Positions 19,828 to 23,211 of a DNA stretch of 49,725 bases are shown here, piece by piece. Origin of the DNA: an uncultured Bacteroidota bacterium (GTDB lineage: Bacteria; Bacteroidota; Bacteroidia; Bacteroidales; UBA12077). The notes under the pieces were generated by a model. That model was not told where the DNA came from and made no database searches. It saw only the letters and a program-made list of their open reading frames with translations. Made by a program: the position numbers and the translations under genes. Within the stretch, counting starts at the first letter, position 1. Every line of letters begins with the position of its first letter. The stretch lies in assembly GCA_913055895.1 (NCBI GenBank), contig CAJXLE010000004.1, positions 1 through 49,725 on the forward strand, in the 5' to 3' direction.

Positions 19828-20340
19828 ATGAAGGTGTTTCTGATTGGTTTCATGGGCAGTGGCAAGACCACGGCTGCCAAAAAGCTGGCAGAGGCTTTGA
19901 ACTGCGGCTGGCTGGATATGGATCAGTGGATTGAACGGGATACGGGCATGAGCATTCCATGGATATTTGAACAGCAGGGAGAGTTGGCTTTTCGGGACCT
20001 CGAGTACCGATACCTGCGGCGCATGGACCACAGCATCATGCAGGTTGTAGCCACTGGTGGTGGAACACCCTGTCACCATGGTAACATGGAATACATGAAC
20101 AAAAAGGGATGGACGGTTTATTTGAAGATGAGTCCCGAACAGCTCTATTCGCGTCTGAAAGATCAGAAGGGCCACCGGCCCAAGTTGATGGAGCCACGCG
20201 AAGAAAACCTGAAGGACTATATTATTCAGAAGATACGCGACAGGGCTCCCTATTATGAGAAAGCCCACATCCAGGTGCCGGGGTATCATATCGACATCCC
20301 CGAGCTGGCAGAGCAAATCAGGACCCGGATGAAGCAATAA
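19828..20340 (+). CDS. aroK: Shikimate kinase
   Basis: Phosphorylates shikimate at O3 in the chorismate (aromatic amino acid) pathway. Walker A GFMGSGKTT lies at residues 7-15. Substrate-binding D30/D32 are in 'LDMDQWIE', R56 in 'FRDLE', and the GGG loop is at 77-79. A lid Arg lies in 'KGHRPKL'. Length of 170 residues is standard. It begins 15 bases after parC on the same strand, so it probably shares the topoisomerase transcript. No other shikimate-pathway gene is nearby. Confidence 0.94.
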   Translation: MKVFLIGFMGSGKTTAAKKLAEALNCGWLDMDQWIERDTGMSIPWIFEQQGELAFRDLEYRYLRRMDHSIMQVVATGGGTPCHHGNMEYMNKKGWTVYLKMSPEQLYSRLKDQKGHRPKLMEPREENLKDYIIQKIRDRAPYYEKAHIQVPGYHIDIPELAEQIRTRMKQ

Positions 20341-20433
20341 AAAGCTGCCTGTCTGAGTATTATAAAAAGATGAGACAGTCGCCTTAAGAATAATCAAGAA
20401 AAGGTTGTTGATAAATCATGGTGGCGAAACCCA

Positions 20434-20584
20434 TAATTGCCATATAGCCATGCCAAATAAATTAACCGGCAATTAGTCAGCAGGTAAGCTCCTGCGTTGA
20501 AAACTCAACTTAAATGTTAATAAAAACCAGCTGATGGCTCTTTGCTGGTAGGGTTTCAATTCATAACTTGCATAGTCCAACCCT
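20434..20584 (+). promoter_or_regulatory. Candidate structured RNA leader of the class II ribonucleotide reductase gene
   Basis: Five successive stem-loops precede the nrdJ start. The stems are 20434-20441/20468-20475 (TAATTGCC, perfect 8 bp), 20480-20484/20491-20495 (GCAGG), 20496-20500/20505-20509 (GTTGA with AAAC loop), 20526-20531/20544-20549 (ACCAGC) and 20550-20555/20579-20584 (AGGGTT). Stems 2 and 3, and stems 4 and 5, abut with no spacer. No T-run follows, so it is not a simple terminator. The canonical cobalamin-riboswitch core was not found, although AGTCAG (20475-20480) and CCTGC recall parts of a B12 box. A TATATTTC at 20607-20614 could alternatively be a promoter downstream of these stems. 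Confidence 0.45.
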
Positions 20585-20637
20585 GAAAGAAAACACCGAG
20601 AGAAAATATATTTCACCATACAAAAACCGCAATATAG

Positions 20638-23211
20638 ATGTACGTAAAAGGCAGAGCAACGGAACAGGACACAAAAAACACAGGCCCCTCAACAGGGAAA
20701 TTAAAAACCCACACATTTGATGAGGCCTTTCAAAGCTCCCTGGAGTACTTCAATGGCGATGAGCTGGCAGCCCGTGTATGGGCCAACAAGTATGCCTTGA
20801 AAGACTCTTACGGGAACTTGTTTGAGAAAAATCCCGATGACATGCATCGGAGACTGGCCAGGGAGATTGCCAGGATAGAGCAGCGCTATCCCAACCCCAT
20901 GAGTGAGGAGCAGGTTTATGAACTGCTGAAGGATTTCAAATACATCGTGCCGCAGGGTGGACCCATGGCCGGTATAGGCAATGACTACCAGATCGCTTCA
21001 CTTTCCAACTGTTTTGTGATAGGCAGTGGTGCCGACTCCTACGGTGGCATCATGAAAACCGACCAGGAGCAGGTTCAGCTGATGAAGCGGCGGGGAGGTG
21101 TAGGTCATGACCTTTCGCACATCAGACCTTCAGGAAGTCCTGTCCTCAATAGCGCCCTCACCTCCACCGGTGTGGTGCCTTTTATGGAGCGCTTTTCCAA
21201 TTCCACACGTGAGGTGGCCCAGGATGGTCGCCGGGGTGCCCTGATGCTTACCATCTCCATCAAGCATCCCGATGCCGAGAGTTTCATAGATGCCAAGCTG
21301 GAGACGGGCAAAGTGACGGGTGCCAATGTCTCGGTGAAGATCGACAATGAATTCATGGATGCGGTGATCAACAACAAGCCCTATCAACAGCAGTTCCCGA
21401 TAGATTCGGACAACCCCGGTTACAAACAAACCATCGATGCCCGTGAGTTGTGGCACAAGATCGTTCATAATGCCTGGAAATCGGCCGAACCCGGCATACT
21501 ATTCTGGGATACGGTAACCAACGAGTCGGTTGCCGACAGCTATGCCGATCAGGGTTTCCGCACCGTCTCCACCAACCCCTGCGGGGAGATACCCCTGTGT
21601 CCTTATGACAGCTGCCGTTTGCTTGCCATCAACCTGTACAGTTATGTCGATGAACCTTTTACAGGAAACGCCAAGTTCAACTTTGAGAAATTCAGGGACC
21701 ATGTGGTTTATGCCCAGCGGATCATGGATGACATCATCGACATCGAGGTGGAGAAAATAGACGCCATCATACACAAGATTGAGAGCGATCCGGAGAACTT
21801 TGAGATCAAGCGGGTTGAATACAACATGTGGCAGAACATACGCAAGAAAGCCCTGGAAGGCCGGCGCACCGGTGTGGGCATCACAGCCGAGGGCGACATG
21901 CAGGCCGCACTGGGCTTGACCTACGGCAGTGAGAACGGCATCGATTTCTCCGAGGAAGTTCACAAAACCATCGCCCTGGAAGCTTATCGTTCTTCGGTTC
22001 AGCTGGCAAAGGAAAGAGGCCCCTTCGGGATATATGATGCTGAGAAGGAGAAGAACAACCCGCTGATCAACCGGCTGAAGGATGAAGATGAGCAGTTGTA
22101 CCAGGACATGGTTCAATACGGTCGCCGCAACATATCCCTGCTGACCATTGCACCTACCGGCACCACCAGCCTGATGACCCAGACCACCTCGGGCATTGAG
22201 CCGGTGTTCATGCCGGTGTACAAACGCCGCAGAAAGGTCAACCCCAGCGACAACCAGAGCAACGTGACTTATGTGGATGAAGTAGGCGACTCATGGGAGG
22301 AGTATAACGTCTTCCACCACAAATTTATCGACTGGCTGAAGATACACGGATACGACCCCCAGGAGGTCCGTCGTTACAACGATGAACAGATCGATCAGAT
22401 CATAGCCGAAACACCATACTATAAAGCCACCTCCAACGATGTGGACTGGGTGAGCAAGGTAAAAATGCAGGGTCGCATACAACAATGGGTCGACCATTCG
22501 ATCAGCGTCACCATCAACCTCCCGGAAAACACTCCCGAAGAGATGGTGGGCAAGCTTTATATCACCGGCTGGCAAAGCGGCTGCAAAGGCATCACCGTTT
22601 ACCGCGAGGGATCCCGCAGTGGTGTGCTCATCAGCAACAAGAACAGCAAAGAGCAGGATACCAGTTCCATAAAAAGGCCCCGCGTGCTGGATGCCGAGAT
22701 CATACGTTTCAAGAATGAGGACGAAGACTGGATAGCTTTCGTCGGCCTCAAGGATGGACGGCCCTATGAGATCTTTACCGGTCTGGCCGATGAAGAAGTT
22801 CTGCCCATCCCCAAGTCGGTGACCCAGGGCAAGATCATCAAGGTGAAAAAGGAATCGGGCTCCAGCCGTTACGATTTCCAGTATACCGATAAGTTTGGAT
22901 ACGAAAACACCCTTGGCGGCATCTCCCATATGTTCAACAAGGAGTTCTGGAATTATGCCAAGCTTATTTCCGGGGTGCTTCGTCACGGCATGCCCCTGCC
23001 CGATGTGGTCAACCTGGTTTCCTCACTGAGCCTGAACACCGAAACCATCAACACCTGGAAAAAAGGTGTTGAGAGGGCGCTCAAGCGATACATCCCCGAC
23101 GGCACCAAGGCCAGGAAGGGAACCAAATGTGAAAACTGCGGCTCCGAGAGCCTTATTTACCAGGAGGGTTGTTTAATATGCCAGAATTGTGGTTTCTCTA
23201 AGTGTGGATGA
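20638..23211 (+). CDS. nrdJ: Adenosylcobalamin-dependent (class II) ribonucleoside-diphosphate reductase
   Basis: Makes deoxyribonucleotides using coenzyme B12, with no oxygen or radical-generating subunit needed. The radical-site loop is 'NPCGEIPLC' (N313, C315, E317). The disulfide partners are C125 ('LSNCFVIG') and C326, with spacings (190 and 11) almost identical to the Thermotoga enzyme. The 'PTGTTSLMTQTTSGIEP' motif and a C-terminal zinc-ribbon (CENCG...CQNCG, about residues 831-853) ending KCG are present; the latter probably carries the redox-active tail cysteines. 857 residues is family length. It appears monocistronic, with a strong terminator after it and the structured leader before it. 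Confidence 0.95.
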   Translation: MYVKGRATEQDTKNTGPSTGKLKTHTFDEAFQSSLEYFNGDELAARVWANKYALKDSYGNLFEKNPDDMHRRLAREIARIEQRYPNPMSEEQVYELLKDFKYIVPQGGPMAGIGNDYQIASLSNCFVIGSGADSYGGIMKTDQEQVQLMKRRGGVGHDLSHIRPSGSPVLNSALTSTGVVPFMERFSNSTREVAQDGRRGALMLTISIKHPDAESFIDAKLETGKVTGANVSVKIDNEFMDAVINNKPYQQQFPIDSDNPGYKQTIDARELWHKIVHNAWKSAEPGILFWDTVTNESVADSYADQGFRTVSTNPCGEIPLCPYDSCRLLAINLYSYVDEPFTGNAKFNFEKFRDHVVYAQRIMDDIIDIEVEKIDAIIHKIESDPENFEIKRVEYNMWQNIRKKALEGRRTGVGITAEGDMQAALGLTYGSENGIDFSEEVHKTIALEAYRSSVQLAKERGPFGIYDAEKEKNNPLINRLKDEDEQLYQDMVQYGRRNISLLTIAPTGTTSLMTQTTSGIEPVFMPVYKRRRKVNPSDNQSNVTYVDEVGDSWEEYNVFHHKFIDWLKIHGYDPQEVRRYNDEQIDQIIAETPYYKATSNDVDWVSKVKMQGRIQQWVDHSISVTINLPENTPEEMVGKLYITGWQSGCKGITVYREGSRSGVLISNKNSKEQDTSSIKRPRVLDAEIIRFKNEDEDWIAFVGLKDGRPYEIFTGLADEEVLPIPKSVTQGKIIKVKKESGSSRYDFQYTDKFGYENTLGGISHMFNKEFWNYAKLISGVLRHGMPLPDVVNLVSSLSLNTETINTWKKGVERALKRYIPDGTKARKGTKCENCGSESLIYQEGCLICQNCGFSKCG

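Follow-up and report, generated by a model that had tools for sequence, protein, structure and literature searches.

DnaA regulates nrdAB in E. coli and has been proposed to act on ribonucleotide reductase (RNR) genes in B. subtilis and Caulobacter, as well as on dnaB in Caulobacter (PMC8203912); in E. coli it also binds upstream of uvrB and mutH (PMC8203912, PMC11317965). The E. coli DnaA box reads TTWTNCACA (PMC7561715), residue T435 of the protein is involved in its recognition (PMC5742627, PMC7561715), and ChIP-seq has revealed a preference for double boxes 2-3 bp apart (PMC11317965). A second described system is that of NrdR, reported to be nearly universal in bacteria (PMC4009431).

We examined the region before nrdJ in the window (the whole stretch of DNA that was analysed, 49,725 nucleotides). 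Two or more conserved boxes lie in the promoter region of this RNR gene. Their sequence, TTWTYAACA, consistently differs from the E. coli DnaA box at a single position and does not match its strict consensus. NrdR (TIGR00244) was absent from the organism's own genome, a 94%-complete draft in 285 contigs, and scored over the cut-off in 1 of 39 genomes. Membership of nrdJ in a NrdR regulon was discarded, since the nrdR gene is missing from the genome. The exception among the 39 is G033, which has a true nrdR (G033:C153:4439-4873) and gave no nrdJ match with the NrdJ query.

The control region of nrdJ

The gene that a preliminary description, made from the sequence alone, had named as nrdJ downstream of a series of repeats is confirmed as such by TIGR02504. 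Its product matches the domains PF02867 and PF00317 only, and the ATP-cone domain was not found in it. With NrdJ as query, nrdJ was the single RNR large subunit detected in the own genome, where nrdD was not found. The features of the locus are the following; the aroK-like gene scores below the NCBIfam cut-offs.

19828-20340, + strand: upstream gene of the shikimate kinase family (aroK-like; PF01202, E 8.7e-41)
20406-20414, + strand: box 0, TGTTGATAA, an exact 9-mer 89 bp upstream of box 1
20495-20503, + strand: box 1 (distal), CGTTGAAAA, 20 bp upstream of box 2 and in the same orientation
20515-20523, + strand: box 2 (proximal), putative DnaA-type box TGTTAATAA (reverse complement TTATTAACA), invariant in the genus, 18 bp upstream of the TTG
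20541-20544, + strand: -33 promoter element TTTG, invariant in the genus, 19 bp upstream of the -7 element
20564-20571, + strand: -7 promoter element TAACTTGC (TAnnTTGY type), identical in all four congeners
20576-20637, + strand: predicted short 5' UTR, with a start at about 20574-20579 judged from placing the -7 element at -12 to -5
20638-23211, + strand: nrdJ, adenosylcobalamin-dependent (class II) ribonucleotide reductase, 857 aa (TIGR02504, E 1.7e-170)

The within-genus comparison covered the window and three congeners, whose NrdJ proteins are 86-92% identical and whose upstream regions are alignable. Three blocks are identical in the four species, namely GTTGAAAACT (20496-20505, at box 1), AATGTTAATAAA (20513-20524) and TTTG (20541-20544), and in TTTCAATTCATAACTTGC (20554-20571) all but two positions are. 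Box 1, box 2, TTTG and TAACTTGC are thus invariant in the genus while the arms of the inverted repeats described below vary. Moreover, a box-like 8-mer is kept 87-89 bp above box 1 in all three congeners, and the sister genus carries GTTAATAAC at the position of box 1. In one congener (G002; L005:1580-1950), about 300 extra bases lie between the conserved promoter and nrdJ and hold a near-identical direct repeat of about 40 bp.

The vegetative promoter of Bacteroidota has a TTG near -33, separated from the -7 element by about 19-21 bp. This arrangement, with TAnnTT(n)G near -7, is found before nrdJ. In F. psychrophilum, TAnnTTGY at -12 to -5 is the SM5 element, the sigma-A type being TAnnTTTG (PMC9723704). 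With the -7 element placed at -12 to -5, transcription of nrdJ would start at about 20576. The promoter that the preliminary description had put at 20607 is a weak sigma-70-type match that is not conserved in the congeners; the conserved promoter is the pair formed by TTTG at 20541 and TAACTTGC at 20564. That description had also considered operator DNA upstream of the promoter, and in kind this was right, although the operator elements are not inverted repeats: they are direct-repeat 9-mers, TGTTRAWAA (= TTWTYAACA), two helical turns apart. It is close to certain that the region is a DNA control region of nrdJ.

The same architecture (GTTRAWAA, 14-20 bp, TTG, 18-21 bp, TAnnTT(n)G) was searched for in 110 nrdJ upstream regions of Bacteroidales and found in 51 of them, a redundant count because some genomes were fetched twice; shuffles, reverse strands and coding sequence gave 0 matches. 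In the 47 nonredundant promoters with the full architecture, the box-TTG gap is 16-18 bp and the TTG-TA gap 19-20 bp. The search pattern did not demand a T directly before GTT, and yet it was there in 46 of 46 promoters, which defines the element as the 9-mer TGTTRAWAA. A second copy of the box lies 20-22 bp upstream in many lineages, and another clade has three copies spaced 10 and 12 bp.

Boxes at other genes and their candidate binder

A genome-wide search of the 39 genomes with the promoter pattern picked up, apart from nrdJ itself, one dnaB and a family that recurs before mutS. When GTTRATAW was scanned on the sense strand (220 bp before the matched start; within 250 bp for the nrdJ loci), it was present upstream of nrdJ in 58 of 77 cases, of dnaB in 22 of 30 and of mutS in 15 of 30, versus 34 of 445 control genes. 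The corresponding Fisher p values (3e-36, 2e-16 and 1e-8) treat the loci as more independent than they are, since those of each gene are related. The motif also preceded dnaN in 4 of 30 cases; we discarded dnaN as a box-bearing gene because, in the genus, the box falls inside the coding sequence of the preceding gene. No sense-strand box was found in the 12 nrdD upstream regions, two of which have an uncertain gene start. The module therefore tracks replication rather than RNRs as such.

Searches for tandem boxes pointed to parAB promoters, to the dnaB-ispE intergenic region with TGTTAATAACTTGTGGATAAC and to conserved box clusters. The parAB operon promoters of L353 and L373 carry tandem TGTTAATAA boxes 2-3 bp apart, the spacing that E. 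coli DnaA prefers, and a canonical TGTGGATAA accompanies a variant box between dnaB and ispE in L354 as well as within the promoter of nrdJ in L075. The boxes of nrdJ are hence shared with other replication and repair genes (dnaB, mutS and some parAB). In the window, by comparison, the two 9-mers are separated by 11 bp (20 bp start-to-start), not by 2-3 bp; some other lineages and genes have start-to-start spacings of 10-13 bp (about 1-4 bp between boxes).

Several further loci were noted along the way. Matches of the promoter pattern at feoAB were set aside because they carry a different palindrome, AATACC..GGTATT; this promoter inverted repeat, seen at the feoAB-like genes of L252, L244 and L251 in the sister genus, is probably a metal-regulator site. 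In the sister genus, the box-plus-promoter pattern also recurs before a predicted membrane transporter gene (L242 family; G007:C9:627760 etc.). A box cluster, conserved between the two genera, follows uvrA and a TIGR00730 (LOG) gene and precedes a gene whose product of about 450 aa has no clear known domain (G000:C85:2054, that is L182; L181, L185, L187, L194, L195, L201 and L192; GTTATTAACAATTGTTGATAACTTATGTTGATA in L194).

The DNA-binding motif in domain IV of DnaA is kept in the organism and its relatives, with Ala at the position of E. coli T435: the domain reads KDHATV or RDHATV in the Bacteroidales sampled (dnaA loci L121-L137) and RDHSTV in Pedobacter (L120). We hypothesise that this T435-to-Ala substitution is linked to the base change in the box (TTATTAACA versus TTATCCACA). 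The boxes most probably represent a Bacteroidales variant of the DnaA box, with C6 of the E. coli TTWTNCACA replaced by A. Given the one-base difference, the Ala at T435, the neighbouring canonical boxes and the known control of RNR genes by DnaA, DnaA is the best candidate for the binder. The 20-bp spacing speaks against it, as do the missing boxes upstream of dnaA and the search for an oriC dense in them, which proved none. We put the probability that DnaA binds the boxes and links the one RNR detected with replication, in the manner of E. coli nrdAB, at roughly 0.6. From the far box and the two boxes that begin at about -61 and -81, DnaA would act on RNA polymerase at nrdJ; as the level and the ATP/ADP state of DnaA vary over the replication cycle, dNTP production by NrdJ would then follow replication. 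The direction of regulation, like the binder and the start site, is something we infer: DnaA may activate or repress nrdJ, and a position upstream of the -33 element would allow activation.

The boxes might instead be operators of another Bacteroidota transcription factor, one that takes the place of NrdR and coordinates nrdJ with dnaB and mutS. The conserved architecture and gene set fit such a factor too, NrdR is missing, and the box is near-palindromic (GTTAATAAC), with a 20-bp spacing that would let two dimers bind on one face of the DNA. The dnaA promoter, too, lacks a box: TGTTRATAA was not found upstream of dnaA in the family. However, the 9-mer is one base from the DnaA consensus and otherwise agrees with it down to the W at position 3, canonical DnaA boxes adjoin variant boxes in places, the gene set is typical of DnaA regulons, and no candidate for the other factor was identified. 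We regard this explanation as rather unlikely, though it is the one to be taken most seriously beside DnaA.

Less likely readings: origin, leader RNA and constitutive promoter

Could the boxes form the chromosomal origin (oriC), with the regulation of nrdJ incidental? Several boxes and long AT-rich conserved stretches lie upstream of nrdJ in the sister genus, and in Bacteroidetes oriC commonly lies far away from dnaA (PMC4755523). However, the GC skew does not switch at nrdJ, either in the window or in two contigs of the sister genus (G006:C23 and G005:C35), on which ground oriC at nrdJ was rejected; moreover, the boxes are phased to the promoter and denser box clusters occur elsewhere. We consider this explanation very improbable. 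GC skew was uninformative in the scaffolded CP070654 chromosome, and no oriC dense in boxes was proven. In the sister genus, four TGTTRATAA boxes and AT-rich stretches form a conserved intergenic cluster beside a lolC/E-like permease gene (G007:C5:39627, G010:C4:96000, G014:C44:105416, G005:C35:190696 and others, L371, L376, L379, L380). Its distance from the GC-skew minimum is about 12 kb in G010 and 36 kb in G005, and it is a candidate oriC or DnaA-titration site.

The preliminary description had suggested a regulatory RNA, possibly cobalamin- or nucleotide-sensing, built on five perfect inverted repeats at 20434-20584. All five exist where it had placed them, and two pairs abut directly as it had said (stems 2/3 and 4/5). 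No strand is assigned to them.

20434-20475: inverted repeat 1, TAATTGCC (20434-20441) / GGCAATTA (20468-20475); none of its 16 arm positions is invariant within the genus, 2-3 of 8 pairs kept in congeners
20480-20495: inverted repeat 2, GCAGG (20480-20484) / CCTGC (20491-20495); 2 of 5 pairs remain in G002 and G001
20496-20509: inverted repeat 3, GTTGA (20496-20500) / TCAAC (20505-20509); 5' arm (within box 1) invariant in the genus, 3' arm variable
20526-20549: inverted repeat 4, ACCAGC (20526-20531) / GCTGGT (20544-20549); 3' arm begins inside the -33 element, 1-5 of 6 pairs in congeners
20550-20584: inverted repeat 5, AGGGTT (20550-20555) / AACCCT (20579-20584); spans the -7 element, 0-4 of 6 pairs in congeners

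The number of non-overlapping stems (5 observed versus 2.5 in dinucleotide shuffles, P 0.033; paired bases, P 0.005) exceeds chance modestly, in a region whose ends were fitted to the stems after the fact, and the folding energy does not stand out (z -1.57 for the 151 nt, z -1.23 for the whole intergenic region). This modest excess and the adenosylcobalamin cofactor of the enzyme speak for a divergent cobalamin or nucleotide riboswitch. However, the conservation and covariation check that the preliminary description had set beforehand came out negative in the three congeners: the stems are lost within the genus with no compensatory changes (covariation score 0.222, equalled or exceeded in 155 of 500 shuffles), the consensus fold of the congeners reaches only -2.5 kcal/mol, and the apparent retention of stem 3 comes from its 5' arm, which is a conserved box. 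The Rfam scan it had also proposed found no family at gathering score in the window, only noise in the leader at permissive thresholds, and nothing in 20 loci of relatives. With a start at about 20576, stems 1-4 and half of stem 5 would be untranscribed from it. Two ordinary cobalamin riboswitches sit at other places in the own genome, so that the standard class is in use, but not before nrdJ. A B12-repressed switch would, besides, be counterproductive for an enzyme that uses B12. A conserved structured RNA was therefore rejected, and a structured regulatory RNA in the leader is hardly to be expected.

A purely constitutive promoter, whose boxes would be an AT-rich upstream element contacting RNA polymerase, agrees with AT-rich boxes at a fixed distance from the -33 element but is just as implausible, given how strictly the 9-mer is kept, its G and T positions being fixed, the two or three copies at helical spacing, and the fact that dnaB and the uvrA-LOG cluster have boxes in either orientation and at other distances.

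Significance and comparison with described systems

NrdR is largely missing in the sampled relatives, and the control of DNA building-block supply needs another answer there; a box shared by nrdJ, dnaB and mutS offers a concrete and testable one. It is probable that TTWTYAACA marks an order-wide replication regulon of Bacteroidales (nrdJ, dnaB, mutS, parAB), run by a DnaA shifted by the T435-to-Ala change or by an undescribed factor, which would replace NrdR for RNR. We found no earlier description of the motif in the open-licence literature. The box may also help to locate replication origins and DnaA boxes in Bacteroidota, a dominant gut phylum in which both are poorly defined.

Among described systems, the SM5 promoter class of F. 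psychrophilum (TAnnTTGY; PMC9723704) resembles nrdJ in having TAACTTGC at the -7 position, but relatives outside the genus have TAnnTTTG or TAnnTTAG before nrdJ, which makes a dedicated sigma factor doubtful. The cobalamin riboswitch (RF00174) shares with the locus the B12 link of the downstream enzyme; its covariance model, however, has no match in the nrdJ leader, its two true members lying elsewhere. NrdR and its boxes (PMC9110341) likewise provide paired operator sites controlling RNR genes. Those boxes are palindromes about three helical turns apart, whereas the nrdJ boxes are direct repeats two turns apart, and NrdR is missing in the own genome and nearly all relatives.

The closest parallel is E. 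coli nrdAB under DnaA (PMC8203912, PMC11317965, PMC8682772), where an RNR gene likewise has at least two DnaA-type 9-mers in its promoter region, within a wider gene set that covers replication and repair genes. The E. coli enzyme is class Ia and the one here is class II; the E. coli box has C at position 6 where the nrdJ box has A; the E. coli boxes are adjacent whereas those of nrdJ are 20 bp apart, and DnaA binding at nrdJ is putative. E. coli DnaA also binds upstream of nrdD, which here has no box, and this counts against DnaA. Taken together, the nrdJ promoter works like a DnaA-regulated RNR promoter, and we describe it in these terms rather than file it as a proven member of that class.
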